Source: Zygnema cylindricum
Taxonomy: Eukaryota; Streptophyta; Zygnematophyceae; Zygnematales; Zygnemataceae
Reading direction: 5' to 3'
DNA: 64,000 bases
Assembly: GCA_037447655.1 (NCBI GenBank)
Contig: JBBHKE010001618.1
Span: forward strand, 1 to 64,000
Part shown: piece after piece, positions 22,209 to 57,472 of the stretch
Layout: every line of letters starts with the position of its first letter
How positions within the stretch are numbered: the first letter of the stretch is position 1
The notes under the pieces: model-generated
What the model was told of the DNA's origin: nothing
Seen by the model: the letters and a program-made list of their open reading frames with translations, nothing else
Databases searched by the model: none
Made by a program: the position numbers and the translations under genes

Positions 22209-22279
22209 GTGCCTTAATGGATAAGGCTCAAGTCTAAATAGAGTTCTGTTGACCCCCGTTCAAATCCGGCTAGAGGCAG
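22209..22279 (+). ncRNA. tRNA-like module in F 3' LTR (type A)
   Basis: D-arm-like hairpin GCCTT-AATGGAT-AAGGC at 22,211-22,227, B box GTTCAAATCC at 22,258-22,267, closing-stem remnant GTGCCTT with GAGGCA, and TTTT at 22,282-22,285. The spacing of A-type and B-type boxes is that of a tRNA gene. It lies antisense to the coding strand of element F. Confidence 0.6.
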
Positions 22280-24219
22280 TATTTTGCTATAAATAGTAAA
22301 ATACCTTCTATTTCATTCTCCCTCCTAAATGACGCGGCAGCTGTGGCGTGCCTTTGGTTCTCTCTTTCTCTCTCTTTACATTCTAACTAAATTATAGAAG
22401 TGAAATATTAATTACCTCTTTTCAACACTCCCGTTAGTTCTTAGTCACTTTTCAATTTTAATCCACAGTTTTCTCTACAATAAATCAACTTAGGGGAAGG
22501 TACTGGTTTTGTCATCATGTCTGCAATCATTTCTTTATCAGTTTTATGAACCAATTTAATGATTTTATTTTCAACCTTCTCTCTGACAAAGCTTAGTCTA
22601 ATATCCATATGCTTAGCTTTGAAGTGATGTTTCAGATTAGCTGCAATAGAGATAGCAGCTTGATTATCACAAACAACATTAAGAGTTCATGTCTTCATGA
22701 ACCCAAGTTCTTCAAAGAGAGATTTCACCCACATTAATTATTTGGTGGAAGCACATGAAGCCATGTGTTCAACCTCTATAGTGGAGTGAGCAACTACTTT
22801 TTGTTGCTTGCTACTCCAACAGCATGCACCAGATCCAATTTGCAACACATATCCAGTCGTACACCGCCTTAAAGGCACATCTTCATAACTGGCATCACTC
22901 CAGGTTGTGATGTCAGTGTGCTCCACTCCCAAATGCAACCATAATACCCATGTCCCTACCAGATACCTCATCACCCTTTTGGCAGCCTCCTAGTCTCTCT
23001 TTCTTGGTTCATTTAGACTCTTGCTGAGGAGTGTTACGGCTGCAGCTATATCCAACCGGGTACAATTCATAAAACATATAAAACTGCCTAGAATCTGCCG
23101 ATAAGGGATATTTTCCTTAAATCTTCTTTCTATCTCATCTATCTCATCATTAATGAATCAATATATCTCCCTCTTCACTCCCCTCAAACACTTTCTTCAA
23201 ATCCATAGGTGTACTACATCCGTTTGCTTTTTCGATCTAAATTTTTTATAGCATATTACTAATTGTTTCCTTCTGAGTGAGTCTTATAATCCTATTCCCT
23301 CTCTCTCTCCATTTGAATTCCCAAAATGTACTTTGCTTGGCCGAGATCTTTCATTTCAAAGGGGCTTAGTTTGTTAATTTTATCTTAGGACTTGCTTAAG
23401 ACCAACAAATCATCCATATAAATAGCAATAAATATCACTCCATCCTCATCCTCAAATAAATATATTGAGTGATCTGAACTAATTCTGATATACCCCAAAC
23501 CGGTCAGAAATTCGTCCAGCTTTATATTCCATTGTCGCGGGGCTTGCTTAAGCCCATAAAGATATTTTATTAGTTTGCAAACCTTCCTTTCTTCCCCACT
23601 TTCCACGAATCCTTCCGGTTGCCTCATGTAAATTTCTTTTTCCAACTCTCCGTGCAAAAAGGTCGTTTTAATATCCATCTAGTGTATTTCCATATCCTCC
23701 GCTGCGACTATATTTAAAAGGATTCTAACAAAAGGAAATTTGTCTACAGGTGCAAAGGTTTCTTCGTAGTCTATCCCCTCTTTTTGAGTATATCATTTTG
23801 CAACTAACCTAGCTTTGTAGCTCTCAATGGTATTATCTGGGTTTAGTTTAAGTTTAAAATCCCACTTACATCTGATCGGTTTTCGGTCCGGTGGACAATC
23901 TACCAACTCCCATGTATTGGCTTCCATGATAGAGGCCATTTTTTCATTTATAGTTGTGATCCACCGGCTACTTTCTGGAGTGTTTATGGCCTCTAAGTAT
24001 GTCTGAGGTTCATTTGGGTGAGACATCTTTGTGAGTTGGTTATTTACTTGTCTTTCTTGAAGTCGTTTACTACTTCTTCTTCCCCTTTCAAAATTTGACG
24101 CCGGTATGGAAGGCATCTTTGGGTTTCGTTTAGGGAGATTTTCAGCTCCCCTATCTTCCAATTCAGATGTCTCATCGAGTTCCTCATCGGTTTCCACTTC
24201 GTATTGTGGGGTTGCCTCG

Positions 24220-25400
24220 TCAAACTCTGAGACCTCTATCGGCCCTCAGAGTAGGCAGATCCAAAGAAAAGCTAATCTAGATAGTGTCCACTCCAACTTG
24301 ATATAAACCCAAATGACTGACCCCTTGACAGTCAAAACCCCAATACAACTTCACCCCTGTGAAATAACACTTTCTGTGTGCTCAGTTCCACCACAGAATG
24401 CAAAGTTAGAATATGAGATTTGGACACATTCACCCACTTTGACTTTCCCTTAGAAATACCGCCACCCTGGCAGACAAAATTTCTGACCGATTACACTCGT
24501 GTGTAGCTTGGACTCCCTTGAGTCCACAACAAAAAGAGTTACTGAAAGCGGTGAAGTAAATTGATAGTTATGGCTGGCCAAAGTTTGCCATTTATAAAAG
24601 GTGATCTCTGGGAGAGGCAGCTACCTACTAGAATATTCTAAGTCTTAAAACTCCCTCTCTCAACTCCCTAGTACTGAGGTACGAACTAATCGCAATACTG
24701 TGAAGTACATAAAGGTACAAGTGCCCGTGTACCTTTTGTACGACCATCGTACGATATGGCCAAAACGTCGACACATGCCATATCCGGATTAGTTCATATA
24801 ATCCCCGGAGATGCCACAGGCCAATGTTATTATGCCACGTGTCAATTGACGTGGCGGTGACCGCAAACAACCAAAAACCCATTCTGTGATCCGACATTTA
24901 TCGCGGCCGTCCGATCAGAACCAACTTCCAATTGTAGCCGTCAAAAATTGATGCGTGGTATTTGTTTCGCTGACGAAACAATATGCGTGGTATTTGTTTC
25001 GTCACCTATCGTACTCCCTACTATATGAAACTGTATCTATGCACGACGAATCTATTCCCCGTTAAATGACTTAGTCTACTAGTAACTGTTTATATATTTA
25101 TCAAACCCAACATAGTCTAGCACTAGTTCTAGACTTAACGGATAAAGCTAACGGTTATGGGTGACTTGGCGGTCGGCAGGTTCCAGGATCAGATCTTGGG
25201 TCCGTCAAGTACCTTTTGGTAAGTCTACCTAATTTACCCCCTTGTCTTCTCTGGAGAGCTTAGGCAGCCATGGCTGTAGCTCCCTATCCAACCTTCAGTG
25301 ACTACAACAAGTGTGGGGGCTTCGAGTGGGGAGTTAGAGGCAGACTGCCTCTGCCTTTTTCTAACCTATTACAGAACTAGAAAATACATAAATATCAACA
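24220..25400 (-). repeat. Solo LTR (type B, copy B1) inside copia F
   Basis: Flanked by an exact 5-bp duplication CCTCG (24,215-24,219 and 25,401-25,405). It starts TCAAACTCTGAG (TG mutated to TC) and ends ATATCAACA. It contains the GACTCCCTTGAGTC hairpin at 24,511, a GCCACGTGTC G-box near 24,833, a tRNA-like module at 25,132-25,210 and the GGCAGCCATGGCTG motif. It interrupts the linker between integrase and reverse transcriptase, and its orientation is the same as F. No internal sequence remains, so it is the product of LTR-LTR recombination. Confidence 0.88.
25132..25210 (+). ncRNA. tRNA-like module in solo LTR B1
   Basis: D-arm-like hairpin CTT-AACGGATA-AAG; T-arm-like hairpin CCAGG-ATCAGAT-CTTGG at 25,183-25,199; nine-pair stem between ACTTGGCGG and CCGTCAAGT; TTTT at 25,214-25,217. 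Compared with B4, the pairing is kept by G-U substitutions. Confidence 0.6.
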
Positions 25401-27024
25401 CCTCGGATGTTGTCCTTTCCTCATTCTTCTTTAGTAGATCTGCAGATTTTTTTTTTCTCCCTCTTCTTTCTCTTCATTTTCAAAGTCAAAGTTTGAAAAC
25501 TCATCCGTTTCAAATCTGATTTTGACTTCCTTATTATATTTGAATGGATCAATGGACTTCTTTTCATTCATCACCACTATGTGTTTTACCAAAATTATAT
25601 CTCTCTTTTTCAAGTCATACACTCGGCATCCTTTTGTGCTCTCATCATATCCTACAAGATATCTTGGTTTTCCTCTCCCCTCAAACTTCCATTTAGTCTT
25701 ATCGGAATCCAAACTGTAGACTTGACTTTTGAACACTCTCAAGCTAGACAAATCAGGCTTTCTTCCTGTCCACCTCTCATACAGAGTTTCCTCCTTAATT
25801 GCTGAAGTTATGACTATTTTTGATGAAATTAGCAGAGTTCATAGACTCCGCCCAAAACTGCAACCCTATCCTCTTATCAATTAACATACTTCAAGACATA
25901 TCTCCTAAAGTTCTATTCACTCTTTCTGCTACTCTATTTTGTTTCGGATTATAGGGAACAGTTTTGTCATGATGAATTCCTTCTTATTTAAGATATTCTT
26001 CAAATTCCCTTGAGGTGTATTCTTTATCACTTCTTATCTCTTTTATTGAAGTTTAGTGTAGTTTTTCACTCCATACTTTATCCTCTTTGAAACATCTCAA
26101 TACCTTTGACTTATGTCTGAGAAAGTATACCTTCGTGTATCTAGACCAATCATTTGTGATAGTTAACATCCACCTCTTCCCCCCATGTGCAGCATATCTA
26201 GCAGGTCCCCAAACATCGGTGTGAATTAGATCTAATACTTTCTCTCTCCTAAATGTGGTTGCCTTTGGAAATGGGAGTATATGAATCTTCCTTTGGGCAC
26301 ATCCATTGCAATCATCAAATGTCTCATCATCCTCAAAAGTAATACCCTCCACAATTTCTTTTTTCTTCATTTTCTTTAATCTATCTAGATGCACATGCCC
26401 CAACCTTTTGTGCCAAATCATCACCTCACTTCCACACGAGTAGAGAACACTCTTATCATTGCAAAGAACAATTATGAACATTCTTTGACTGCCCTTCTCA
26501 GCTATGAAATAAACCTCGTTATCAAAGCTTGCTATAAAGATTCCTTTCCTAGTTCCTGTTTCAAACTCCTTTTCATCTAGGACAACTGTTGAGACCAAGT
26601 TCTTACTAAGCCGTGGAATGTAAAGAACGTATGAGAGTGTTACAATTGAGGCCTTTCCATCAACTAGAAACTTCAAGCCAACAGTTCCAACAAGACTTGT
26701 GGTTTCTACTCTACCATCTCCGTACTCTATCTCAACAGTTGGAATCTTTCTCAATTTAGTGAACCACCTCTTATCTTTGCACATATGCATTGAGGCCCCT
26801 GAGTCTATGATCCACCCATCCTCAGGTGGATCCCTCTTACCTCCGAAAGCACACTTTTGTTTCCGTGGAATGTCAACATGCTTTTCAATGCTTTTCGGAT
26901 TAAAAAAAAGCTCCTCAAGCTCCTTTTCCTGTTCGGTTTCTTCGTTCTCTTGCTCATCATGAACTTGAGTTAGGAAAGACTTTTTCTTTCCTCCATTTCT
27001 TGAGGTCCCTTCCCCATCTTTCAG

Positions 27025-28030
27025 TCAAAGATCTGCAAGTTTGTCACAATCTGCCATATAGTGTCCCGGTTTCTTGCAGAAGTGACATAATCCTCCTCGA
27101 GAAGTTCCTCTCCCCTGTCTATCAAATCTGCCACCTCCTTGTCCTCTTCCTCCAAAGTTTTGATAGGGATCTTTCTCTTTTTCTCTCATCACGCTTCCGC
27201 CAATCACCTCCTGCAGACAATGCTTAAACAGTTGGACTCCCTCTCCTAAGCTCTATGTTGCTCTCTTTCACTAAAATCATTCCTACTGTGTCATCCCAAT
27301 TACAATTGCTATCGCCTATGTCCTACAATCTATTATGATATTCTCATACTCTTCATGTAGTTTCATCATTAATGTGTTCACTCTTTCTCTCAGACCATGA
27401 GTTACCTGCACTCTCTAGCTCTCCAAATAATGCTCTTAAATCATTGCAATAATTATTCATGCTTCCTCCCTTATAAGTATAAGCTGCAATCTTTTTTTCT
27501 GGCTGTTGTTGTTGCTGTATTGATCCACTGTTATATTTGTTAACTAGTGATATCCAAATCTGAGATGAAGATTTGACATGCATAAGGGGAATGACAATGC
27601 TCTTTGCTACACTTTTAAGAATTAAGAGCTTAGGAACCTTGTCTTTGTAGTTCCACTTCTCATTCTCTTTCCGTCTGAACCCTCGTCGCTGTTGCTGGTG
27701 GTGCTGTTGCCGGTATCGCCTGCGGCAATGGTGTCACTTGAGTTGCAATTCCTTCCTTTTCTCCTTCCATAATAATCTCCTCTCCTTCCTCGTCTTCATC
27801 TTCAGTGATGGTGGCAACAGTTCTACCTACTGTAGAGGCGGAGGTGCCAAAAAAACGCGTTCCTCCAAACCCAGGTGGAGGTAGGCATCGAACTTGTCCG
27901 GCCACTATGCTCATAGGTGTTTCTCAAATAGTTCTCCCTCCATCATGATTTCCCAATAAAGAAAGTTTGATCCATCAAATATAGGCACCCTAGAGGGTGG
28001 GCCTATAACCTGCAATTCTGTGGTCTCGAT
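27025..28030 (-). pseudogene. Copia F gag, starting inside the LTR, broken
   Basis: The reading frame runs across the LTR end (28,011) and the primer-binding site: ...ETTELQ-VIGPPSRVPIFDG. The start position (28,030-28,028, 20 nt inside the LTR) reads ATC here but ATG in sister LTRs. Downstream are the gag pieces LPPPGFGGTRFFGTSAS, KSSSQIWISLVNKYNSG with KIAAYTYKGGSMNNYCNDL, and a CCHC zinc knuckle CHFCKKPGHYMADC at about 27,050. Stops and frameshifts interrupt it. Gag packages the element RNA; this copy is dead. Confidence 0.7.
27995..28010 (-). promoter_or_regulatory. Primer-binding site of copia F (half initiator tRNA-Met type)
   Basis: Directly after the 5' LTR the coding strand reads GGTTATAGGCCCACCC. 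This matches 14 of 15 positions of the complement of the plant initiator tRNA-Met anticodon arm (GGTGGGCCCATAACC). It is the half-tRNA priming arrangement known from Drosophila copia, not the common TGGTATCAGAGC type. Confidence 0.75.
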
Positions 28031-28912
28031 TGACCCAAAGAATGAGCAGCCAATGTAAAGCCTCTAGGATAATATTTGCCCCTTCTACTTCCCCGCTGGA
28101 TAAGCGTCGCCTAGGCACACAAATATCTTGACCACTCTCACCTCGTGACGAGAAGACTCCCCTGAGTCAAACACAAAAAGAATCACTGAATTTGCTCCCC
28201 TGAGAAGTAAGCTATAGCTGGTCAAAGATGACCTTTATAGTTACAAGCTCTCTTAGAGAGAGGTACCTGAATTTCACTAAGTCCTCGTCTGCCTACTTAC
28301 GATTGCCTACTACTAAACCCTAGTCCAATAGAAACACTATATAGTACAAGAAGGTACACTAGGCGATGTACTTATTGTACGGCCATTATACGACATGGTT
28401 TTCAAAGTGACGTTTATCAAAACGAGAGCCATGGTTCCTCCTCCCATCTTCTCCAGTATCCAATAATATGGTGCCACGTGGCGTCGCGTGACACTATCTC
28501 TAAAGGCCGCCGAAAGTTTATTGCGGGTGGCGGTTGCAATGGTGGTCGTCGGATCATTTGTATTTATATGGCTTTGATTCGCTTCTGTGCGTGAATTGAT
28601 TAATGCGTGTTTTTGTTAGTCTGCTGCAAATTATTCCGTTGAATCAATAGATAAATATGCGTGAAATGTTGCACGTATATCGTTTCGCTAGTGCCTTAAT
28701 GGATAAAACTTGGGTATAAATAGTAGTCCCTAGACCGCAGTTCAAATCCGGCTAGAGGCACTATTTTGCTACAAATAGTATAGTACCTTCTATTTCATTT
28801 TGCCTCCTTCTAAATGACGCGGCAGCCATGGCGTGCCTTTGGTTCTCTCTTTTTCTCTCTTTACATTCTAGCTAAAATATAGAAGTGAAGTATTAAATAC
28901 CTCTTCTCAACA
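28011..28912 (-). repeat. 5' LTR of copia F (type A)
   Basis: 902 bp, TGCAATTCTG...TCTCAACA on the plus strand. It carries the GACTCCCCTGAGTC hairpin (28,155-28,168), a GCCACGTGGC G-box near 28,471, the tRNA-like module (28,691-28,761) and GGCAGCCATGGCG near 28,822. Divergence from the 3' LTR indicates an old insertion. Confidence 0.85.
28691..28761 (+). ncRNA. tRNA-like module in F 5' LTR (best cloverleaf-like copy)
   Basis: Exactly 71 nt, closed by a 7-pair stem GTGCCTT / GAGGCAC (one G-U). It has a D-arm-like AATGGATAA loop, B box GTTCAAATCC at 28,740-28,749, and TTTT at 28,764-28,767. The 5' strand of the T stem is degraded. Canonical anticodon pairing is not clear, so a charged tRNA is unlikely; a Pol III promoter is plausible. 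Confidence 0.62.
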
Positions 28913-29574
28913 AATACTTTTTTGTGACTCTTGTAGTCCCAAATGTTTTTTTAGTTTTACCATTTTTGTACATAGATGGTTTTGCCATCGCAATTGTTGC
29001 AGTAAAAACTTTCCCTTTAACCTATGCGTTGATTAGGTGCGCTCAAAGATATGTCGTACATGCAGTTGAGGATACCGCGAAGGCCATTCAAAAGTACAAT
29101 TCATTTTGCAAAAAATGTCACGTGGCATGGCCTCGACATCTGATAAAACCGAACGGTCGCACCAACAATTTTGTGCCCAGTGAAATTCTTTGAGCTGCAC
29201 GTTATTTTGTTGCATTGTTCATATAGTGATTACAAGTAAGGTTCGTTAGTTTTCTTGCTTTCGGATTGAAAGGTGTGAAAGGGTCCAAAATGCGCCGTGA
29301 CTTTCACACTTTGCAAAATATTGCCTGAGTACCTTAGATTTTTTGGGTCACTAGTAATTCAAAGCCCGTTACACGAACATGGTTCGTGTTGTGTGTGTTT
29401 ATGCTTGTAAAAGTTGTTGTACACTATACATTTCGGAACAACCACATGTGGGTTTTTTTATGAACTATACAAATGTAAACTTTATGTGGGAATATCAACC
29501 ATAGGGTGAATGTTTTACAACACAAATATAGACAATTTTAAACTGAGAGAATGTCACATGTAAGATAAAATTCC
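28913..29574. other. Spacer between copia F and copia E1
   Basis: No gene. A segment at 29,370-29,440 (CCGTTACACGAACATGGTTCG...) resembles 34,131-34,200 on the other side of E1, so E1 may have inserted between older repeat copies. Confidence 0.4.
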
Positions 29575-33008: not shown

Positions 33009-33031
33009 CTGAGTCTAAAGATTTAAGGGAG

Positions 33032-34050
33032 TGTTGGAATTTATAAATCTTAATTTCAGTTTATAGGGGTAAAAATAACTTAGGATATTTTTTCTAGTAA
33101 TACTTACCTTAATTTGTGTTAGAGTAGCAAAAGGTACAGTAGAGTGTATTGTACTTTTGCACGGACACGTGTTGGCGAAAGAACGTATGCAAGTTTTTCG
33201 GAGTAGCGCTGACAGTCAAGCATACGTGTCAAAAAGTTGACGATGCGATTCACATGATCGGACGAACGGGATCTGTCCTGAGTATTTCGGAAACATATGA
33301 TACAGATCGACGGTACCACCGTCAATCGAATCTGTTCCAACGGACGCGATTCACCTGGGACCATAAGCGTGATTCACGAGGGACCATAAGCGTGATTCGC
33401 GTGGGACCACAAGTGACGAAGCACTCAGGTGCTTCGTACTACACGACCACATTCGGCTGGACTTTAGCGGTCACCGCTGACTAAGCATTTGGAACGTTTT
33501 GTGTACGGTTAGAACGTTTTGTGAACGGTTCAATTTTTGTACATTTTTGAATAACATTAGTTTGTCGTTTAGTGTGATATAAAATAGTGTTCTATTAATC
33601 AGGTTTTTAGAAAATAGTTATTAGGGTTTTTGAGGTATAGTGACGTACGGGTTGGATGCTTTGTCGTTAGTCAGGATAATAACCGTAGTAATTGTTACCC
33701 GAATTAGTGTAGATCAGTAGATACACATTGTGAGTATATAAATTAGGACTTAGCCAATTTTGTAGTATTCAGTTTTGGGAATATGATTTTCTAAGGGCAG
33801 TTTTTGGGAAACTTCCAAACATCATATCTTATGGTTTACTGGGTCATTGGGCTGCAATTTTGGGAATTGTCAGTTTACTATATTGTGTATCACTGCATCA
33901 AATTTGAAACATATTGGGGTTCTGAGTCATATTTTGTGTCAGTTCAAAGTTGGCTGTTGAGTAAGTACTTTGATAGTTTTTGCTGTTTTTCATGTCTACT
34001 TCTACTACTACTGCTGGTTCTCCGCCTGCAACAGTGGTTGTAGAACAACA
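33032..34050 (+). repeat. 3' LTR of E1 with in-LTR gag start
   Basis: TGTTGGAATTTATAAATC...GTAGAACAACA. An ATG at 33,992, 59 nt before the LTR end, opens the frame MSTSTTTAGSPPATVVVEQ. The same frame, at the same distance, is present in D1 and D2. Because the target duplication ATTCC fixes the LTR end at 34,050, the gag start is inside the LTR. Confidence 0.88.
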
Positions 34051-34055
34051 ATTCC

Positions 34056-34212
34056 GAGCCAACAAAAATGTTTTGAAGTTCATAAACATACTTTATCTAC
34101 TTCACAACAGGAATATAAAAGTACAAAAAATGTCCGTTACACAAGCAAGGTTTGTAGCGTGTGTGTTTATACTTGTATAAAGTGTTTAGCTAGTGTATTG
34201 GTTTGAGCCCTA
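34056..34212. other. Spacer right of E1
   Basis: Short non-coding stretch; its end resembles the left flank of E1 at 29,370-29,440. Confidence 0.35.
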
Positions 34213-35860: not shown

Positions 35861-35864
35861 TGAC

Positions 35865-36201: not shown

Positions 36202-37240
36202 TGCAATTCTGTGTCCTCCATTGGACTACAGAATACAGGAAGCCTCTAGATAGTATTTAACTAACCCACTTTAAGCCACAACCACTTCTGCCTCAGAAGG
36301 CAAACTGACAATTTGACTGCACCCCTGTGTAGCCTGGACTCCCCTGAGTCCGTAGCAAAAAGAATCACTGAAAACGGCCAACCAGGCGATAAGTTATGAG
36401 GCAGTAAAAATGCCAATTTGTACAAACTCTCAAAGGGAGAGATGACTACCTACCTAAATTTTCTAAGTCTTGATTCTCTCTAATAACTCCTATCTACTGA
36501 AGTACGGACCAATCAGATTACTGTATCGTACACAAAAGTACTACTGCCGATGTACCTTTTGTACGGCCTATGTACGACAAGGCTATTAAGTGGACGCGTG
36601 TCCGCTTTTCATTCGTCCGTACATTCCTCAGAATTCCTATGACCGAATGTCATCTCTCCACGTGGCTCCAGGTCATGCCACGTCACAAAACGCCAAAATG
36701 ACCACTCCGGGATTTCGGCGATGATGTGCGCCGTTGGATTTTGTGCCAAACGCAATCTTAGCCGTAATAAATGCTTGCGTGACATTTGTTCCGATGTCGA
36801 AATAAAATGCGTGGTATCCGTTTCGAATTAGCGTCGTACGACGTACTTTATAAAACTGAATCTATGTACGCCGTATAAAGTTCTAGTTAAATGAATTTTA
36901 GTCACGTAAACTAAATATATATCTATCACATACCATCGTACTTAGCATTGGTCCTAGTCTATTAGGATAAAGCTGACCGCTACCGGTCAACTTGACGAAC
37001 CGCAGGTACCGGGATCAAACCTCTGGTCCGTCAAGTATATTTTTAGTAACCTACTAAAAAATAGCTGTCTGTTGAACTAAGGCAGCCATGGATCAACCTC
37101 TCTCTCTTACCTTCAGTGACTACAACAAGTATGGGAGTTAGGGAGCGGAGGTGGAGGCAGGCTGCCCGTCCTTTTTCTTTCCTTTTTATAAAGACATATT
37201 TAAACCTAGAAGATACTCTAGAAATCTATAAATTTCAACA
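36202..37240 (-). repeat. Solo LTR (type B, copy B3) in the minisatellite
   Basis: Exact 5-bp target duplication AACAT at 36,197-36,201 and 37,241-37,245. Ends TGCAATTCTG and ATTTCAACA. It carries the GACTCCCCTGAGTC hairpin (36,337-36,350), CCACGTGGC at about 36,659, a tRNA-like module (36,957-37,035) and GGCAGCCATGG near 37,082. Read on the minus strand it holds the gag start ATGGAGGACACAGAATTGCA, whose ATG is exactly 20 nt from the LTR end. Confidence 0.92.
36957..37035 (+). ncRNA. tRNA-like module in solo LTR B3
   Basis: T-arm-like region around GGGATCAAACC; eight perfect pairs between ACTTGACG and CGTCAAGT; D-arm-like TTAGGATAAAG; TTTTT at 37,040-37,044. Confidence 0.58.
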
Positions 37241-42145: not shown

Positions 42146-42545
42146 TTGAATAAACTTAGGGTGGACCCCATGTAACTGTAATTTAGCGAACTTATTTTGT
42201 ATTTTAGCCCAAATTCGGCATACCTTGATTTCAAGTGTCTCTATGTGTTTACGCGAAATTGTTACTTAAGGCTGTGACAATTGTATACGTCGACAATGCC
42301 CATGACAATTGTCAACGTCTACAATCTGTGATGACGCACTGGATTGTTCAAAATTGTTTTTGACGTCGTATAACATTCCGTGACATTAGTAGACGTCTAC
42401 CTTTTCAACCCTGATACACATTGGCGCCTTGGCAACTCTTCACCTTCGCAGATTTTTCACCTATTCGTGAAATGGCATTGCTGCCTCGAAAAACCCTACC
42501 AAAAAAAAATGGTACAATATACAAGCAGACAAAAACGAACATTCT
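42146..42545 (+). mobile_element. PIF/Harbinger-like MITE, copy 1
   Basis: Starts at a TTA (42,156-42,158) followed by GGGTGGACCCCATG. It is about 400 bp and nearly identical to the next copy, which it abuts head to tail. Internal GACGTCTAC / GTAGACGTC inverted motifs are present. TTA and a G-rich TIR suit the PIF/Harbinger (Tourist) type. Confidence 0.6.
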
Positions 42546-43273
42546 ACACTGAATAAACTTAGGGTGCGACCCCATGTAATTGTAAATTAGCGAACTTACT
42601 TTGTATTTTAGCGCAAATTCGGCATACCCTGATTTCAAGTGTCTCTATGTGTTTACGCGAAATCGTTACTTAAGGGGGTGACAATTGTATACGTCGACAA
42701 TGCCCATGACAGTTGTCAACGTCTAGAATTTATAATGATACATTAGATTGTTCAAAATTATTTTTGACGACGTATAACATTCCGTGACATTAGTAGACGT
42801 CTACCTTTTCAACCCTCTGTCTATGGATACTGTATTGGCGCCTTGGCAACTCTTCACCTTCGCAGATTTTTCACCTATTCGTGAAATGGCATTGTTGCCT
42901 CGAAAACCCTACCAAAAAAAAATGGTACAATTTACAAGCAGACAAAAACGAACACCCTTGTACTATTTTTCATAGTAAAAAAAAAAAAAAAATTTGTTAC
43001 AAGTGACAATATGTTTTCCTGTTTGTGGAAGATGTGTAACTTTATTTAAAACATATTGCCGACGTGTTTGATGATAAGTTTGAAGATGACGTGACTGTGG
43101 GTCTCAAAATGAATAACGACAACTTTTAGTACATCTAAGTTAGACGATGACGCAAATTGTACTCTACTATTTTGCAATTTCTTTGTCTGGATGCAGCTTA
43201 GCATCTGACGCTAAGTTTTAAAGGAAAATGACGGAAAAAAACCCGTACTCAGCCGCATGGGGCCCCACCCTTA
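42546..43273 (+). mobile_element. PIF/Harbinger-like element, copy 2, complete ends
   Basis: Left TTA at 42,559-42,561 with GGGTGCGACCCCATG; right TIR CATGGGGCCCCACCC at 43,256-43,270, then TTA at 43,271-43,273. The 3-bp TTA duplication and complementary ends support a Tourist-like element. A poly-A tract lies at 42,977-42,992. No transposase is encoded. Confidence 0.65.
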
Positions 43274-43740
43274 GGGTATGTCCCCATGTATTTGTAAATT
43301 GCCGAATTTACTTTGGATTTTTGTGCAGATCCGACGGATCTGGATTTAAAGTGTCCCTATGTATAACACCAAAATTGTAGCTTACATCTGTGACGATTGT
43401 ATACGTTGATAATACATGAGACAGTTGTTAACATTTACAATCTGTGTTGTCACACGTTATATTTTGTAGCCGATTGTGACATCATGACTTTTCGTGACAT
43501 TGTAGACGTACCACTCTCTAGCATCTACCGCTTTATGGTTGAAGAAGATGCATTTTGTCTTTGCGTCTTCCGTCAAGTTGACTTGATATGGCATCAAAAT
43601 CTTGAGACCCGTGCAAAAAAAATAATTGTACCTAACGCAAATGGACAAAACAAAACAAACTATGTACTTTTCTTCGTCGTACTTAGCAGTAACAAACAAA
43701 ACATAACAAATGGTGTACTTTTCCTTGTCGCTTGAAATCG
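43274..43740 (+). mobile_element. PIF/Harbinger-like MITE, copy 3, diverged and partial
   Basis: It uses the same TTA as its left boundary, then GGGTATGTCCCCATGTA. It shares the GTAAATTGCCGAA, GTGTCCCTATGT and ACGTTGATAATAC blocks with copies 1 and 2 at lower identity. The right end is not found. Confidence 0.55.
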
Positions 43741-44668: not shown

Positions 44669-45551
44669 TGAAATTTTGTGGTCTCCATTGACCCACAGAA
44701 TGAGCAGCCTATGTAAAGCCTCTAGGATAATATTTGTCCCTTCTACTTTCCCGCTGAATAAGCACCACCCAGGCACACAAATATTCAGACCAATCTCACC
44801 CCTGTGTGGAAAAGACTCCCCTGAGTCAAACGCAAAAAGAGTCACTAAATTTACTCCCTTGAGCAGTAAGTTATGGCTGGTCAAAGATGACATTTATAGT
44901 TACAAGCTCTCTTAGAGAGTGAGGTACCTAAATACTACTAAGTCTCGGTCTGCCTACTCACGACTACCTACTACTAAACCCTAGTCCAATAGGAACACTA
45001 TATAGTACAAGAAGGTACAATGGGCGATGTACTTATTGTATGACCATTGTACGACAAAGTCTACAAGGTGACACCTGTCAAATCGGAAGCCATGGTTCCT
45101 CCTCCTATCTTCTCCGATATCAAATAATGTGGCGCCACGTGGCACCGCGTGACGCTATTTCCATATGCCATCAAAAGCTCACTTCGCGTGGCAGCTATGA
45201 TGTCGGCCGTCCGATCAAAACTACACGGTTCAGATTCGCGTACATGCAAGAATTGCTCTTTTTGGTTAGTCTGCTGTTAATTAGCTGTTGCGTTAATGTT
45301 TAAATATTTATGAAACCCGTCGCGTGTATCGTTTCGTAACGCCTTAATGGTTAAAGAGTTAGGCCATAGAGAATCTAGAGCTCGCAGGTTCAAACCTAGA
45401 CTTAGGCATCATTTTGGCAAAATACCATTTACTTCAAAAACTGCCACTTTCTAAATATGGCGGCAGCCATGGCGCGCCTTTGATCCTCACTCTCTTTCTT
45501 CAAAGCAAAAATAAAATAGGGAAGTGAAATATTAATTACCTCTTTTCAACA
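44669..45551 (-). repeat. Solo LTR (type A) inserted at the RT YVDD site of G
   Basis: Exact 5-bp duplication CTATT at 44,664-44,668 and 45,552-45,556. 883 bp, TGAAATTTTG...TTTCAACA. Joining the flanks at the duplication restores the reading IFIAI-YVDDLLVL, so the insertion point is certain. It carries the GACTCCCCTGAGTC hairpin (44,814-44,827), GCCACGTGGC near 45,134, a tRNA-like module (45,339-45,410) and, on the minus strand, a gag ATG exactly 20 nt from its end. It is antisense to G. Confidence 0.95.
45339..45410 (+). ncRNA. tRNA-like module in solo LTR A
   Basis: GCCTTAATGGTTAAAG D-arm-like start, B box GGTTCAAACC at 45,388-45,397, GCCT/AGGC closing pairs, and TTTT at 45,412-45,415. Confidence 0.6.
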
Positions 45552-46469: not shown

Positions 46470-47464
46470 TGTAATTCTATGACCTCCATTGGTACACAGA
46501 ATGTCCCCCTTATATGAAGCCTATATGGTTATATATGTTCTTTTGACTTTGACAATGAATAAGTCCCACCAAAGGACGAAAAAACTCTAACCAACTACAC
46601 CTCTGTGTTGCCTAGACTCCCTTGAGTCGTTGCAAAAAGAATCACTGAATTTTCTCCCTGAGCATTAAGTTATGGCTAACCAAAGTTGGTTTATAAATAC
46701 AAGTGCTCTTTGGGAGAGAGGTTGAAAAACCAAAAATATTCTAAGTCCTAAACTGCCTCTCTAAATGTATTATTAGGGTACTCAACCAATCATTGGACTG
46801 TAAAGTACAAGAAGGTACAAGTACCGCTGTACTTCTTGTATAGCCATAGTACGACATGGCCGTTTCGCTGAGGCGTGTCATTTCTAGAGCCGAAGTTGCT
46901 TCTCCCGCAATATCCGTTATCCAACCATATGTTGCCACGTGTCATCCGCTGACATCAGGTCCACAAATCGCCAAACTGCTTTTCCAGCATTTTGGCTCCA
47001 TTGTGAGCTGTTTGATCAAATCTCGACATTTGATTTCGTTCGTCGAATTTAAATGTCGATTCGTATATTTCGTGCGGTCCCGATTTCGTGTAGAGCGGTA
47101 TGATTCCTATGCATAAATTGTACCGTAATTAGTTAAATGGAATATCTGGCGCGGTACATTTTTAAATAAATATCAAACTGTATATGTGTATTACTTTCTA
47201 CAAGACTTACCGGATAAGGCGGTCGGTTAATCCGTACGGCGATTATCCGGAGGTCACCGTATCAATTCCCATTAGTGACCGCCTACCTTTTGCAGAAACT
47301 TGTAGATCTATCTGCCTGTTATACAACTATCTGCCTGTCTCCTTACTAGCAAGGGACAGCCATGGCTGCTTGCAGGTCCTCAGTGACTACGACAAGTGTG
47401 AGGGCTGTAGTAAGACCACAAGAAGACCACATAAACAGACTACAAAATACTTCTATTTTCAACA
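46470..47464 (-). repeat. 3' LTR of copia C (type C)
   Basis: TGTAATTCTATG...ATTTTCAACA, 995 bp. It has the GACTCCCTTGAGTC hairpin at 46,615-46,628, GCCACGTGTC near 46,934, a tRNA-like module at 47,204-47,283 and CAGCCATGGCTGCTTGC near 47,357. The minus strand has the gag start ATG 20 nt from the LTR end. Confidence 0.85.
47204..47283 (+). ncRNA. tRNA-like module in LTR C
   Basis: D-arm-like CTTA-CCGGA-TAAG, a perfect 7-pair stem GGCGGTC (47,218-47,224) with GACCGCC (47,277-47,283), a weak B box TATCAATTC, and TTTT at 47,288-47,291. The 66-nt span from stem to stem is close to tRNA size. Confidence 0.55.
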
Positions 47465-47477
47465 CTCCCCTTATTTT

Positions 47478-50400: not shown

Positions 50401-50710
50401 AGCTGTAAAGTACACTTCATTCTCATAGCTAGCAACAAAGACTCCTTTCTTAGTACTAGTCTCAAAGGCTTTATCATCTAAGACCGACGTAGAGATAAGA
50501 TTTTGGTTCAACTCCGAAATAAAAAGAACATCAGAGAAAGTGACTATAGATGTCTTTCCATCAACTAGGACCCTCAGATCTACTAATCCCACTAAATTAG
50601 TGATCACTATTCTCCCATCCCTATACTCTATCTCTACAGTAGGGATCTTTCTCATTTTGGTCAATAATGGTTTTTCTCTACACATATACATAGAGGCTCC
50701 TGAATCAATG
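47478..50710 (-). pseudogene. Copia C pol, several lesions
   Basis: From high to low coordinates: protease IDSGASMYMC near 50,700; HKRLGHVHRDRLKEM with CSGCAQGKAHRLPFPKA; integrase pieces to 50,056; integrase C-terminal half and linker (49,786-48,962; PYERWTGRKPNISHLKVFGS). RT follows (48,958 down): KWVFKLKLNPDNTIERYKAR, YGLKQAPRQW, IAIYVDDLLVLSKS. RNase H is 47,975-47,478 with WSDASYGDASMRR and CENQATFIIAANPNH. Stops lie at the breaks, for example near 48,960 and 49,870. Of the minus-strand copies it is the least damaged. Confidence 0.85.
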
Positions 50711-50898
50711 ATCCATCCTTATTCATGAGCTTCTTTCACTCCACCGAAAACACACTTTTGCCTCCTTGGAATCTCCGGCTCACCTCTCACCTCTAACTCC
50801 TCATTGAGGAGAAGTTCTCCATTGTCATTATCGGCATCCTCTCCCACGACTTGTGTCGCAACAAACGCATTTTTTTTCCTTCCGGCCAATTTTCCAAT

Positions 50899-51840
50899 CT
50901 ATTCCTCCTTCAATCTCAACTCCGTCAACTTAGCGCACTCCGCCATATAGTGTCTGGACTTCTTACAAAAGTGGCAAAGCCCCTTCGGAGCCCTTGGTCC
51001 AGATCCGTCATGGTTTCCTTTTCCTCCTCCACCAAAGTTACCATATGGTTTCTTAGAATCCTTATCCCCCCAGTCAGTACCCGTAGCCAATGCTTGAACA
51101 CTCTTTCATCCCATTTGAATCTCTATTGTGTTTTCGCGACCAAAAATCATCCCCACAACAGAATTCCAGATCCAAAGATGATCTGACAAATGCTGGACCC
51201 TGTTAACAATGTTCTCATAATCAGCTGGGAGTTTCATTAGCAAAGTGTTCACCATCTCTTTCTCCATCTCCCTTTTCCTTGCACTTTCTAACTCCATGAA
51301 TAACCTAGCCAAATCATTACAGAAATCTAACATCTTTCCCCCTTTAAACACATATGCCTGTACCTTCTAATTTGCCAACTTCTGCTGCTAAATCGTACTT
51401 CTCTTGTAAATGTCAGCAAGAGCTTCCCACAACTCGTCTGCTCTCTCCACATGAAGATGAGGTGTAGCCACTCTGTGAGTGTGACGCCTCAGAATAAAAT
51501 GAGTCGCCACGATATTGTTGAAATCCTTGATTTCAGTATCATTCGCCTCTATTTTGTGAACAGGTGCTACTAGAGCCGATCCACTAGCCATCGGTGTAAT
51601 TTTCTCCTTCCCTTTATCCGACATGGTGCTTTTTCCAACATCCTCCACCCCCTCTGCCCCTGTATATCCTCCTGTGAACTGAGATCCTCCAAACCCAGGT
51701 GGAACTCCCAATTTAGCGGATGGCCGATGTAGAGAGGAACACACATGCAGAGTTTCAAACAAATCTGCCAACAGATATGAGAGCAATCCTCATATAAAAT
51801 TACCAAAAATCCCCATAAACAGTTTTGGTCCAAAAAGTTC
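50899..51840 (-). pseudogene. Copia C gag
   Basis: Pieces: LFMGIFGNF near the 5' end, VPPGFGGSQFTGGYTGAEG, AVATPHLHV..ADELWEALADIYK, KGGKMLDFCNDLARLFMELE, and a CCHC zinc knuckle CHFCKKSRHYMAEC (about 50,950). The knuckle would bind element RNA. Interrupted by stops and a frameshift. Confidence 0.75.
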
Positions 51841-51844
51841 CTTT

Positions 51845-52240
51845 AGTCCAAAATGACGAAGTCCTACAAATATACACTAGAGCTCACTACTGAATGTACG
51901 GAGGCATACCAGCCGTACGTAACCCGAATACTTCGTGACATGTCAAAATGAATAGATCTACACTAATACCTAATACACATAGGACAAAACATTGTTGCAA
52001 ATATTTACAAACCTTACAAATTTCATCAAACGAATCTGGATCGTCGAATATGAATATCATGTGATGGACGCAATTTTGCGTCCCACTTAATTACTTTTTC
52101 ACGTCTCTTTAATCTTCCTCGTACATCTATTCTAATCCGCAAACCATTCGAACCACATTAATTTCGGTAATTAAATACGCACGTGAACACGCGCACTCAC
52201 GAAACGTCGTAAGCGCACGAAACTAACTTTTCAAAAACCA
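51845..52240 (-). repeat. E-type LTR-like fragment, minus orientation
   Basis: The reverse complement shares GTACGGCTGG-TATGCCTCCGTAC and GTAGGACTT blocks with the LTR remnant at 35,150-35,220. It adjoins the gag of copia C, in the position where a 5' LTR should be. Boundaries approximate. Confidence 0.45.
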
Positions 52241-52244
52241 ACAA

Positions 52245-53071
52245 ACAGTAAGGTACGCTAGGCCAAAGTTGACCTTTATACCGAAGCTCTCTCGGACGGA
52301 GGCGGCTACCTTCTTTATTTTCCTAAGTCCTATCCCTCTCTAAAACTCTATCTTCTGACGTACGACACCAATCATAAAACTTTGTCGTATAGAAAGTTAT
52401 AGGTGCCTGCGTACATTTTGTAAGGCAATTGTACGACATGGCCAAAAAGTAGACATATGTCATATTTGGATTCGTTCCTGTGATCCTCGGAGATGCCGCA
52501 ACCTAATATGGTTGTGCCACGTGTCATTCAATGTGGCGATGACCGCAAACCGCCAAAATTTTATTTCGTGATATCGGCATCGTTCGCGGTCGTCCAATCA
52601 AAACCGGGTTTCAATCGTAGGCGTCATAATTACTTGCGCGGTATTCGTTTCGCAACCATATTGTACTTGGTACTTTACAAATTTGTATATATGCATTATA
52701 TTTATAGTTTTTGTTAAATGAATTTGTTCACGTAAATATTTGTTAAACCCTATATAATCTATCACTGGTCCTAAACTTATAGGATAAAGATAACAGCTAC
52801 CGGCTAACTTGATGGACGCAAGGTACCAGGATCAAATCCTGGGTCCGTCAAGTACCTTTTTAGTAAACCTACTAAAAACAAATGCATGTCTCTCTCACTC
52901 AACATCACAGGCAGCCATGGCTCTAGCTTCCTCTTAATCTTCAATGACTGCGACAAGTGTGGGAGTTGAAGAAAGGAGTTAGAGGCACACTGCCCTTGCT
53001 TCTTTTCTACTTTTTATCTTTTTACATATTAAGACATAGAAAATAATAAAGGAACCTTTAATTTTTACACG
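52245..53071 (-). repeat. Type B LTR fragment (copy B4)
   Basis: Similar to B1, B2 and B3: GCCACGTGTCATTC at 52,516, tRNA-like module at 52,776-52,853, GGCAGCCATGGCTC near 52,912, CTTCAATGACTGCGACAAG near 52,940, and an end at ATTTTTACA. The gag-proximal end is missing. From 52,712 onward it is identical to 56,444 onward. Confidence 0.7.
52776..52853 (+). ncRNA. tRNA-like module in LTR B4 (clearest T-arm)
   Basis: D-arm-like CTT-ATAGGATA-AAG; perfect T-arm CCAGG-ATCAAAT-CCTGG at 52,826-52,842; an 11-pair stem between ACTTGATGGAC (52,807-52,817) and GTCCGTCAAGT (52,843-52,853), stacked directly on the T-arm as in a tRNA acceptor/T minihelix; TTTTT at 52,857-52,861. The loop has A at the position of T54, a feature of eukaryotic initiator tRNA. 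Confidence 0.65.
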
Positions 53072-53078
53072 ATATAAT

Positions 53079-53740
53079 TGTTCTTGAGAGATAAGTCCAA
53101 AAACTATACTGCCACTAAGAACGAAGTACTTATTATCACGGTACAACTTATCTACTACTGTACAATGATTATTAGTGAGAAATTATACTAAGTGATTGTA
53201 TAAAGACTTGCCGGTGGCTTAGTTACCTCTGTTTGGATAAGTTTATCCGGTTGTTTGGAAAACATCTGCTAGCAAGTCACTTTTGATTCTCATATGAATC
53301 TCGTCCGTCAACTTGATTCATGTCAACTCCAGCTCCATTGTCTGTACCAAATCATATCATGTCAACTGCAGATGCGTTGTCCTGTCTACGTCGCACTTAC
53401 GTTGTCCATGTTGAATCATATCAAAATAATCGCAGCTGGGTTGTTTTATCTGCGTCGTTGCTTTGTTGTCTTTTTCAATTCATTGACAGTATTTTGGAAA
53501 CTTCTAAGTGTTGTATCTTATGGAATATTTTTTCAATTGGGCAGCAATTTTGGGAATTGTCACACTGTATGTGATGCTGTGTCAATGTAGATTTTAATGT
53601 TATTTAGAAACTTTGAGTGCTTTCTGTGTTATATCAAAGTTAGTTGTTTGATAGGATTTGTGGAAGCTTTTGCTAAAGTCTATGTCTACATCTACTACTG
53701 CTGGTGGACCTCCATCTGCAACTGTGGTTGTACAACAACA
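53079..53740 (+). repeat. 5' LTR of copia D1
   Basis: TGTTCTTGAG...GTACAACAACA. The end is set by similarity to E1, where a target duplication fixes it, and by the adjoining primer-binding site. The start is less certain, since the 3' LTR of D2 is about 1 kb. A gag ATG lies at 53,682, 59 nt from the LTR end. Confidence 0.65.
53205..53278 (+). ncRNA. tRNA-like module in D1 5' LTR
   Basis: 74 nt closed by a perfect 7-pair stem GACTTGC (53,205-53,211) and GCAAGTC (53,272-53,278). A-box-like TGGCTTAGTTACC follows the 5' strand, and TTTT (53,281-53,284) follows the 3' strand. The 5' end AAGACTTGCCGG resembles AAGACTTACCGG of LTR C. No clear B box. Here the module is sense to the element. Confidence 0.5.
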
Positions 53741-54635
53741 GGTTTTGGGCCTTTCGTCCAAAATTCCTATCTTTAATGTCTAGAAGTACGCATACTGGGC
53801 AGCTATGGTCGAATCATTTTTCGAAACTCCAGACTTGTTAGGGGTCTTGGATGGATCTCTTGCTCAAACCGATCCGAGCTAGGCGAAGAAGACCTCTCTC
53901 GCTCAAAACAATATGATTTTTAGTATCTCTAAGAGTCTGGTTATGTCTCAGCTCAAGATGAAAAAGGCGAGCGAGATTTAGACTTCACTGAAAACTTCCT
54001 ACGAAAAGGCGAACGTCCAAGAAGAGCTTCTGGTGGCTGGCCGAATCTGGGACTACAAATACTCAGGGGATCTATGGCCGAGTATTGTGACAAGTTTAGG
54101 GAACTCATTGATGCACACTCTTCAGCTGGTGGAACTTTTCCAGAGTTCCAGCAAGCTGCTTTACTTATTAGAGGTCTCCCTAGTCATATGAAGAGTGTCT
54201 GCAGCTTTGAAAGGGCATAATAAGTATAGCTGGACCTTTCAGTTAGCTTACAATCTTATACTAGAAGAAGAGTCTACAAGTAAGGTCCTTGATAGTGAAA
54301 AGAAAGTAGAGGCTTTCAGTACACACTTTGAAAGAAAATATCAATTTAATCAGAACAGAAACTCATTTAACCAAACTCAAAACCAGTTTAATCAGAATCA
54401 GAACCAGTTTAATCTGGACAGTCAGGGGCCAAATAGTCAGTCTTCTAACGCTTGTTTTTACTGTTCTGAGAAAGGACATGGTTATAGGTTTATTCCAAAA
54501 CTGAAAAAGGCAAATGAAACTGGTTTATACAGGCCTAGATGGCAACAAAGCCAGTTTCACCAAGGCTCTTCTGGCAATCCATCACGCGGAAATGCATTTT
54601 TTCAGCCTTTGCAGATGATGCAAATTCATCTCTGA
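53682..54635 (+). pseudogene. Copia D1 gag, starting inside the LTR
   Basis: MSTSTTAGGPPSATVVVQQ reads across the LTR end (53,740) and through the primer-binding site as QVLGLSSKIPIFN. Then YAYWAAMVESFFETPDLLGV and TAG stops near 53,880 and 53,978. Later come GRIWDYKYSG-like text and a zinc-knuckle relic CFYCSEKGHGY whose last cysteine is lost. Several frameshifts. Confidence 0.75.
53741..53755 (+). promoter_or_regulatory. Primer-binding site of D1 (half initiator tRNA-Met type)
   Basis: GGTTTTGGGCCTTTC follows CAACA. It agrees with the F site (GGTTATAGGCCCACC) and with the complement of the initiator tRNA-Met anticodon arm over the first 11 bases except one. The same site is at 57,473 in D2. 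Confidence 0.6.
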
Positions 54636-54649
54636 GCTTCAATGATGAA

Positions 54650-55770
54650 GAAGATGCGGAGTTATTTGTTATGGCGGCAACAATGGAGGGTCCCAAAGAC
54701 GGTGGATGGATCATGGACACCGGGACATCGGCCCACATATGCTGGGACAAAGCAATTTTTACAAATCTAAAGCAAACTCTTCCGAAAAATATCTACTATG
54801 CATGTGGCATGAGTGTCCAGTCATCGGCCCGGGGTGATGTATCTCTAATGGTAAATGTGGGGGGAAAGTCTGTAGAAAAAACTCTACACAATGTTTTACA
54901 TGTTCCAGATTTTAAAAAGAATCTCTTTTCCATGTCTTTAGTAGAGAGTAAGGGTTTTGAGGTCACCCTTAAAGGGGGGAGACAGATTGTTAGTAAGTTA
55001 AGAAAAATAGCAGTAACAGAAACAAGAGATGCCAGTAAGATGTACAGGATGGACCTGGCTGAATGAAAAGAAATAGATGTTTTGTATTCCAGTTTGTCAT
55101 CTGAAAATGAGTTATGGCATAAGAGGTTAGGACATATCAATTATGAAAGTTTGAAAAAAATGGTGAATGATGGGAAAATTAAGGGTGTTTCTCTCACATC
55201 TCAGCCTGTAAAAACCTGCGATGGCTGCTCACTAGGCAAAATTCATAAATTGCCATTCCCACAGGAATCGAAAAACAGATCTACAAAAGTTCTACAGCTC
55301 GTTCATTCGGATGTCCTCGGCCCATCCCAAGTACCGTCGGCTGGAGGAGTACAGTACATGGTCACTTTCACTGATGATTTCTCCTGGTACACAACAGTCT
55401 ATTTTATCAGGAACAAGAGTGAAGTGTTCACTCATTGCAAGCACTATAAAGTCAGGGCTGAGAAACTACACGGAGTGCCAATCTTGGCGTTCAGATCGGA
55501 TAATGGAGGTGAATACACCTCTAACGAATTCAAGCAATTTCTACTTGATGAAGGTTTAAGTCACAATCTGACGGTTCCATATACTCTTGAGCAGAATGGT
55601 GTTTCTGAAAGATTAAACATGACACTAATAGAGGTTGCTAGTCGATGCTTGCAGACAAGGGTATAGATCTGAAATTCTGGGCTGAAGCACTTAATTGTGC
55701 GGTCTATATAAAGAATAGAGTAGCATCCAAGTCTGTCAGCACTACACCTTATGAGCTGTGGACAGGAAAG
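54650..55770 (+). pseudogene. Copia D1 protease and integrase
   Basis: Protease GWIMDTGTSAHICWDKAIF near 54,697-54,755; GAG_pre-integrase HKRLGHINYESLKKM (about 55,117) with CDGCSLGKIHKLPFP; integrase core VHSDVLGPSQVPSAGG, TFTDDFSWYTTVYFI and SDNGGEYTSNEF; then EQNGVSERLN. A stop at about 55,066 separates protease from integrase, and a frameshift follows near 55,650. Closest to E1. Confidence 0.85.
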
Positions 55771-56803
55771 TGAAACTCTGAGACCTCCATAAGTCCTCAG
55801 AGTGGACAACTTCCAAGAAGCCTCTAGGATAACCATGACCCCTTTGTGTTTCAGCAAAAATAACTGCCACCCTGGCAAAAAAAAACTCTGACCAACTTCA
55901 CCCTTGTGAAGATAAGACTCCCTTGAGTCGATAGCAAAAAGAATCTCTGAATTTGCTCTCCTGAGCAGTAAGTTATGGAGGGTCAAAGGTGACCTTTTGT
56001 ACAGAAGCTCTCTGGGAGAGAGGGTCCTATCTTCTACTTTTTCTAAGTCCTATCTCTCTCACAGACTCTATCTACTGATGTACGGAACCAATCAGATTTC
56101 AGTTTCGTACACAAAAGTAGAGCTGCCAGTGTACTTTATGTACGGCCATTGTACGACATGGCCAAAATGTCGACACGTGGTATGTCCGGATTCGCTCCGT
56201 TAATCCTCGAAGATGCCGCGATCCAATATCATTCCGCCACGTGTCATCCGATGTGGATATGACCACAAACCGCCGAAATCCTCTTCTGCGATCTCAGCGT
56301 TAATTCCAGCCGTCCGATGAAATTCACATTTAATCGTAGCCGTAATAAATACATGCGCGGTATTCGTTTCACTAAAGAAATAAATGCGCGGTATTGGTTT
56401 CGTATCCGTACCGAAATCCAAACTTTTACATTTACTGGATATATGTTAAATGAATTTGTTCACGTAAATATTTGTTAAACCCTATATAATCTATCACTGG
56501 TCCTAAACTTATAGGATAAAGATAACAGCTACCGGCTAACTTGATGGACGCAAGGTACCAGGATCAAATCCTGGGTCCGTCAAGTACCTTTTTAGTAAAC
56601 CTACTAAAAACAAATGCATGTCTCTCTCACTCAACATCACAGGCAGCCATGGCTCTAGCTTCCTCTTAATCTTCAATGACTGCGACAAGTGTGGGAGTTG
56701 AAGAAAGGAGTTAGAGGCACACTGCCCTTGCTTCTTTTCTACTTTTTATCTTTTTACATATTAAGACATAGAAAATAATAAAGGAACCTTTAATTTTTAC
56801 ACG
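55771..56803 (-). repeat. Type B LTR (copy B2) inside the D1/D2 tandem
   Basis: Starts TGAAACTCTGAG right after D1 and ends ATTTTTACA. It has the hairpin GACTCCCTTGAGTC at 55,916-55,929, GCCACGTGTC at 56,237, a tRNA-like module at 56,508-56,585, and a gag ATG 20 nt from its end on the minus strand. No target duplication: the left flank is GAAAG and the right is CGATA, followed by the D2 LTR, so the right junction is recombinant. From 56,444 it is identical to B4. Confidence 0.8.
56508..56585 (+). ncRNA. tRNA-like module in LTR B2
   Basis: Identical to the B4 module (offset 3,732 bp): T-arm at 56,558-56,574 and TTTTT at 56,589-56,593. It is part of the identical tract, so it is not independent evidence. 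Confidence 0.6.
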
Positions 56804-56810
56804 ATATAAT

Positions 56811-57472
56811 TGTTCTTGAGAGATAAGTCCAAAAACTATACTGCCACTAAGAACGAAGTACTTATTATCACGGTACAACTTATCTACTACTGTACAATGA
56901 TTATTAGTGAGAAATTATACTAAGTGATTGTATAAAGACTTGCCGGTGGCTTAGTTACCTCTGTTTGGATAAGTTTATCCGGTTGTTTGGAAAACATCTG
57001 CTAGCAAGTCACTTTTGATTCTCATATGAATCTCGTCCGTCAACTTGATTCATGTCAACTCCAGCTCCATTGTCTGTACCAAATCATATCATGTCAACTG
57101 CAGATGCGTTGTCCTGTCTACGTCGCACTTACGTTGTCCATGTTGAATCATATCAAAATAATCGCAGCTGGGTTGTTTTATCTGCGTCGTTGCTTTGTTG
57201 TCTTTTTCAATTCATTGACAGTATTTTGGAAACTTCTAAGTGTTGTATCTTATGGAATATTTTTTCAATTGGGCAGCAATTTTGGGAATTGTCACACTGT
57301 ATGTGATGCTGTGTCAATGTAGATTTTAATGTTATTTAGAAACTTTGAGTGCTTTCTGTGTTATATCAAAGTTAGTTGTTTGATAGGATTTGTGGAAGCT
57401 TTTGCTAAAGTCTATGTCTACATCTACTACTGCTGGTGGACCTCCATCTGCAACTGTGGTTGTACAACAACA
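56811..57472 (+). repeat. 5' LTR of copia D2 (identical to that of D1)
   Basis: Same sequence as 53,079-53,740. It includes the tRNA-like module (56,937-57,010) and the gag ATG at 57,414, 59 nt from the end. Confidence 0.65.
56937..57010 (+). ncRNA. tRNA-like module in D2 5' LTR
   Basis: Identical copy of 53,205-53,278, with the GACTTGC/GCAAGTC closing stem and TTTT just after. Confidence 0.5.

Follow-up and report, generated by a model that had tools for sequence, protein, structure and literature searches.

Do the long terminal repeats (LTRs) of coding copia retrotransposons carry an RNA polymerase III (Pol III) promoter of their own? The question is raised by a stretch of 64 kb (GC 0.40) of the Zygnema cylindricum genome, hereafter the window, which is crowded with decayed copia elements. 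LTRs of three groups (A, B and C) in the window contain a module made of an A-box-like block, a B-box-like block and a T-run, all read antisense to the element, and these parts are conserved between the groups. The likeness to tRNA genes is confined to this promoter layout. A tentative explanation, which may well be correct, is that the module descends from a captured Pol III type-2 promoter that has degenerated and stays in antisense orientation at the outer edge of the unique 3' region (U3) of the LTR, either as a short transcription unit or as a TFIIIC-type boundary.

Copia LTRs with an antisense module

Self-comparison of the window and inspection of the LTR ends have resolved seven distinct A, B and C LTR sequences in three diverged groups, with lengths of 883-1181 bp, and an eighth copy, B4, repeats the module of B2. 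The number of insertions is six if A1 and A2 form one LTR pair. The elements and LTRs, with their target site duplications (TSDs), the primer-binding site (PBS) and adjoining sequences, are as follows.

20360-28912, minus strand: copia element A, about 8.5 kb including nested inserts, with 3' LTR A1, 5' LTR A2 and a decayed gag-pol between them
20360-20430 and 21596-22427, minus strand: LTR A1, 3' LTR of element A, interrupted by a 1165-bp insert
28011-28912, minus strand: LTR A2, 5' LTR of element A
27996-28010, minus strand: PBS-like GGTTATAGGCCCACC, immediately after LTR A2
44669-45551, minus strand: solo LTR A3, TSD CTATT, sitting in a plus-strand copia reverse transcriptase fragment
24220-25400, minus strand: solo LTR B1, TSD CCTCG, nested within element A, terminal dinucleotide decayed (GA for CA)
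36202-37240, minus strand: solo LTR B3, TSD AACAT
46470-47464, minus strand: LTR C, adjoining a purine tract and the 3' end of the minus-strand pol of a second element
55771-56801, minus strand: LTR B2, inserted into a D-type pol

The A1 and A2 LTRs share 88% identity across an 835-column match. Six of the seven LTR copies have TG...CA termini, the exception being B1 with TG...GA. The 5-bp target duplications characteristic of Ty1-copia are exact at A3 (CTATT/CTATT), B3 (AACAT/AACAT) and B1 (CCTCG/CCTCG), and the duplication of element A, AATAT to the left of A1 and AATAC to the right of A2, matches in 4 of 5 letters. Inspection of the ends of B2 revealed no matching duplication, and for C, whose partner LTR was not found by self-comparison of the 64-kb window, one side only is known. 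GGGAG-type purine tracts precede A1 and C. A Pfam search covering pieces of the window places the minus-strand domains Retrotran_gag_2, Pol_BBD, gag_pre-integrs, SH3_retrovirus and RVT_2 between A1 and A2 or beside C, the RVT_2 match between A1 and A2 being weak (28.1 bits against a cut-off of 31.6). With a PBS at A2, a polypurine tract (PPT) at A1 and at C, and a copia gag-pol, all of which mark Ty1-copia elements, the A, B and C copies of the module lie within genuine copia LTRs.

In every A, B and C copy the A-box-like block, the B-box-like block and the T-run follow one another in this fixed order on the plus strand. The first block is of the GGATAA type, reading GGTTAA in A3. The coordinates of the modules are as follows.

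22210-22285, plus strand: module A1 (A-box-like 22210-22220, B-box-like 22258-22266, T-run 22282-22285)
28692-28767, plus strand: module A2 (A-box-like 28692-28702, B-box-like 28740-28748, T-run 28764-28767)
45340-45415, plus strand: module A3 (A-box-like 45340-45350, B-box-like 45388-45396, T-run 45412-45415)
25131-25217, plus strand: module B1 (A-box-like 25131-25141, B-box-like 25187-25195, T-run 25214-25217)
36956-37044, plus strand: module B3 (degenerate A-box-like 36956-36966, B-box-like 37013-37021, T-run 37040-37044)
47203-47291, plus strand: module C (A-box-like 47203-47213, B-box-like 47260-47268, T-run 47288-47291)
56505-56593, plus strand: module B2 (degenerate A-box-like 56505-56515, B-box-like 56562-56570, T-run 56589-56593)
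52773-52861, plus strand: module B4 (letters identical to B2, not a separate count)

The T-run of 4-5 T is present in all seven distinct copies and in B4, so that the eight LTR positions named by the original prediction as holding two boxes and a T-run are borne out in every copy. The gap from the end of the A box to the B box is 37 nt in each of A1-A3, 45, 46 and 46 nt in B1, B3 and B2, respectively, and 46 nt in C, and the gap from the end of the B box to the T-run is 15 nt in group A, 18 nt in group B and 19 nt in C. Both distances are compatible with the geometry of a tRNA gene. Box definitions for plant short interspersed elements (SINEs) are given in PMC2774510. The B box has no break at its seven constrained positions in five of the seven copies and a single break in B1 and C, and its changes fall mostly on free positions. 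Breaks at the nine constrained positions of the A box number one in A1 and A2, two in A3 and B1, three in C, four in B2 and five in B3.

Since pol, the PBS and the PPT are on the minus strand and the boxes on the plus strand, the module is antisense to the element, a feature that the original prediction overlooked. It occupies the distal U3, where its distance from the sense start is about 137-301 nt in six LTRs, and lies upstream of a TATA-like hexamer that all seven copies have at the same position of the alignment (columns 235-241), as TATAAA in five and TACAAA in two. The distance from this site to the A block is 441-534 nt, and similar hexamers also occur closer to the module in A2, B1 and B3. 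The aligned site is probably the RNA polymerase II (Pol II) promoter of the LTR. The antisense orientation therefore excludes the module as the promoter of the genomic RNA of the element: it cannot start the element's own RNA, unlike the Pol III promoters of Cassandra or, presumably, Helenus, two non-coding families discussed below. A role in priming reverse transcription, also proposed for the module, is unlikely because GGTTATAGGCCCACC beside LTR A2 looks, on inspection, like the initiator methionine tRNA (iMet) anticodon-arm PBS of copia elements.

Conservation of the module and its explanations

An alignment of the seven copies over part-length LTRs gives a between-group identity of 0.76 for the A block, 0.72 for the B block and 0.69 for the T stretch, compared with 0.32 from box to box, 0.25 from the B block to the T stretch, and 0.29 and 0.30 in the 150 flanking columns on each side. 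When the boxes are defined by consensus and the groups are weighted equally, the identities are 0.65 (A), 0.71 (B) and 1.00 (T). Key parts of the module have thus outlasted the surrounding LTR sequence between groups. In the distal half of the alignment only 2 of 372 placements reach the observed mean, namely the true placement and its neighbour. An alignment-free test finds the A block to be the best common 14-mer in three of five trios of copies, the best 14-mers of the remaining trios being GGCAGCCATGGC and a block containing AGTTAAATG; the sole trio that was shuffled, A1/B1/C, scores 11/14, whereas its 100 shuffles reach at most 10. A strict search of both strands of the 64 kb for A box, B box and TTTT (at most two A-box mismatches, none in the B box, sum at most two) finds four places, all of which are modules (A1, A2, A3 and B3), compared with a mean of 1.57 and a maximum of 5 in 40 shuffles. 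Conservation is a better argument against chance than this pattern search.

Several observations weigh against a retained Pol III promoter. ARAGORN finds no tRNA or transfer-messenger RNA gene in the window, and Rfam returns no match at the gathering threshold and ten weak matches at E<=10 in the 20-60 kb region, none of them a tRNA. The A box is degenerate in B2 and B3 and broken at a third of its constrained positions in C. Looser settings of the pattern search give no excess over shuffles (47 places against a mean of 43.95). Of 832 placements along the entire alignment, 24 equal or exceed the module in conservation, because the other half of the LTR holds better-kept blocks; the distal block GGCAGCCATGGC, for example, has an identity of 0.80 against 0.76 for the A block, and the module ranks below other parts of the LTR in conservation. 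The claim that the LTRs differ strongly elsewhere is therefore not confirmed. Within groups the boxes are not significantly above their local flanks (0 of 6 pairs), so the comparison of boxes with flanks that the original prediction named as its refuting test comes out in its favour between groups but not significantly within them. The alignment itself may favour matching motifs, and the support comes from three groups in one window, as sequence only.

The best-kept block of the LTR is the palindrome-like GACTCCCYTGAGTC, at 21673-21697 and six homologous places, present in all seven copies that have that part.

A tRNA gene as such was considered and rejected: neither ARAGORN nor Rfam recognises a cloverleaf, and no fold is common to groups A, B and C. 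Near A1, Rfam at E<=10 gives four matches, none of which is a tRNA, and near A2 and B2 it gives none. Closing stems do exist, AGTGCCT/AGGCACT in A2 and ACTTGA.../...TCAAGT in B2 and B3, where it starts in mid-unit, and wobble pairs do not tell which strand is the RNA. The tRNA-like hairpin unit of the original prediction is thus not confirmed, and its Pol III layout in coding copia LTRs survives as a pattern of box, box and terminator kept between A, B and C and not as a tRNA-like RNA; "tRNA-like" is a fair term for the promoter layout only.

The tRNA origin of the module, its binding, its transcription and its boundary role are inferred, and the most likely course of events is as follows. An ancestral copia LTR would have captured a tRNA-derived sequence or the head of a SINE, antisense, in its distal U3. 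The lineage would then have divided into groups A, B and C, with the cloverleaf lost or never kept, while the needs of a Pol III type-2 promoter persisted, namely an A-box-like block, a B box, their spacing and a T-run terminator. TFIIIC, and perhaps Pol III, would bind the module, and a short RNA of about 75-100 nt would be directed out of the element. The module would mark or insulate the outer U3 edge, away from the Pol II promoter.

The main rival, a serious one though less probable, is that the conserved blocks act as cis-elements of U3 for Pol II and that their likeness to Pol III signals is coincidental, because the first block retains letters (CTTA..GGATAARG) that the A-box consensus does not require and is broken at several consensus positions, which fail in B2, B3 and C. 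Its GGATAA core is similar to a GATA/I-box site. The other short blocks that are conserved equally or better, and the lack of excess in the loose search, are also consistent with cis-elements. However, coincidence would have to account for three parts in the proper order, orientation and spacing, for a T-run in 7 of 7 copies, and for B-box changes that fall mainly on free positions. It is improbable that the module is a neutral, decaying remnant of a tRNA or SINE that entered the ancestral LTR long ago and whose boxes survived by chance: the degenerate A boxes, the missing fold and boxes that are no better kept than flanks within groups agree with decay, but between groups the boxes stand at about 0.7 and their surroundings at about 0.3, a contrast that chance survival of all three parts does not readily produce. 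Least probable, by a little, is a sense-strand RNA structure of U3 at the 3' end of the genomic RNA instead of a promoter, since although both strands fold well in B2 and B3 (z on plus/minus strands -3.9/-2.6 and -4.0/-5.0, respectively) and a palindrome overlaps the T-run in B2, B3 and A1, the groups have no common fold, folding is weak in A1, B1, C and the plus strand of A3, other LTR windows reach comparable z (B2 and C), the wobble pairs leave the strand unsettled, and the boxes and T-run read antisense.

In group A the spacer between the boxes is the most variable 37-nt window of the part of the LTR that was aligned.

22221-22257, 28703-28739 and 45351-45387: group A spacers between the boxes, 37 nt each

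In these spacers 28 of 37 columns vary compared with 194 of 771 elsewhere, which ranks first of 772 windows, and pair tests on a narrower spacer of 28 columns give p values of 2e-4, 3e-5 and 6e-8, although the pairs share copies and are hence not independent. No such excess is seen in the group B spacer (0 of 3 pairs). The absence of indels from the spacer is uninformative because there are only 2-9 gap openings per about 840 columns. If A1 and A2 are the pair of one element, part of the spacer variation arose after insertion, and a mutational hot spot or conversion is then as possible as selection for spacer variation. A bolder suggestion, and an unlikely one, is that a coding, autonomous copia clade would carry in each LTR a short antisense Pol III gene with fixed boxes and length and a body, the group A spacer, that changes faster than the remainder of the LTR, which would represent either a fast-diversifying small RNA or a mutation scar linked to Pol III transcription, the whole acting as a portable boundary directed outward.

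Repeated runs, D-type LTRs and other sequences

Because an identical 1287-bp run common to B2 and B4 contains the module, the two are counted once for it; their left parts are just 75% alike. The identical runs lie at 52712-53998 and 56444-57730, and since the neighbouring sequence is otherwise 75-94% similar, they suggest recent conversion or unequal exchange within the B/D elements. The two D-type copies for which a module had been proposed are one sequence (691 of 691 positions agree).

A module had also been claimed for the D-type LTRs (53201-53284, plus strand). This candidate was rejected: it has no B box, the best one in 53201-53300 having two mismatches, and the other D LTRs, at 33031 and 61540, show nothing that corresponds to it. 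By eye, the D-type LTRs at 33031-34045, 53066-53745 and 61540-62545 seem to contain the start of the gag frame, the D-type LTR homology passing through ATG to ...CAACA, directly next to which, in one copy, is a PBS-like GGTTTTGGGCC.

All eight A, B and C LTR copies between 20360 and 56801 have the same orientation, though several are separate insertions. A 249-nt repeat is present in three copies at 42164-43528 (92% and 62% identity to the reference), with starts 404 and 712 nt apart. An open reading frame at 16125-17318 has no Pfam match; by eye it resembles a metal transporter. A pattern made from the LTRs matches seven places in the window, which are the seven LTR copies with that part, and none in 100 shuffles; elsewhere it has no match in viral_contigs, and its two matches in genome_contigs, both to bacterial loci, are attributed to chance. 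Searching viral_contigs with a pol query produced 22 pattern matches, of which not one was confirmed.

Relation to known elements and meaning

The LTRs of foamy viruses carry Pol III microRNA units and so resemble the modules in placing a Pol III short-RNA unit in the LTR of a coding retroelement; such microRNAs are the topic of PMC7693620 and PMC7104284. However, foamy viruses are animal retroviruses whose units form microRNA hairpins, and the likeness is not based on a tRNA-type layout. At tRNA genes and extra-TFIIIC sites that act as insulators, a B box bound by TFIIIC serves as a boundary; by analogy this may be how the module acts, but those are host sites and not parts of LTRs.

Closer in layout is Helenus, a group of terminal-repeat retrotransposons in miniature (TRIMs) of 311-1263 bp, non-coding and with tRNA-like LTRs, described from fungi, animals and Selaginella (Kojima 2024, PMC10886601). 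The earlier statement that Cassandra has no established tRNA-like counterpart is therefore outdated, albeit Helenus is small and non-coding. The LTRs of Helenus and TRIMp3 hold a tRNA-like sequence whose A and B boxes are conserved though the tRNA is non-functional (PMC10886601), and the modules resemble it in their A/B-box layout. As for tRNA-derived boxes in the LTR, the modules have 0-1 breaks in the B box in 7 of 7 copies and 1-5 of 9 in the A box, with no tRNA by ARAGORN or Rfam. Fungal Helenus makes 5-bp duplications, mostly has a PBS for the iMet anticodon loop and is thought to be mobilised by Copia, which in fungi uses an iMet anticodon-type primer (PMC10886601). The differences are that Helenus is short and non-coding, whereas here LTRs of 883-1181 bp flank gag-pol, and that the Helenus box is proposed as the promoter of the element, whereas the module is antisense to it. 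The A, B and C elements thus differ from Helenus in size, coding content and orientation and are not members of it. Cassandra likewise has the Pol III promoter of a small RNA gene within its LTR, but this promoter is of the 5S type, is in sense orientation and drives the RNA of a non-coding TRIM (as described in PMC10886601).

The same paper states that "not a few" Repbase LTRs contain part of a tRNA, of which only TRIMs are kept there, and argues that Pol II promoters are obligatory for coding elements, so that little LTR sequence is expected in common with Pol III-driven TRIMs; the word "antisense" is absent from its main text (PMC10886601). Beyond it, literature listings on the subject contain no title or abstract opening that deals with tRNA-like or Pol III units within the LTRs of autonomous copia elements, which is no proof of absence. 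A comparable arrangement is already known from the smaller Helenus elements. A Pol III-like unit that lies antisense in the U3 of a coding element sidesteps the conflict between Pol II and Pol III reasoned in PMC10886601, and such a unit could be the source of Helenus-like elements, a chromatin boundary that the element carries with it, or an antisense brake.

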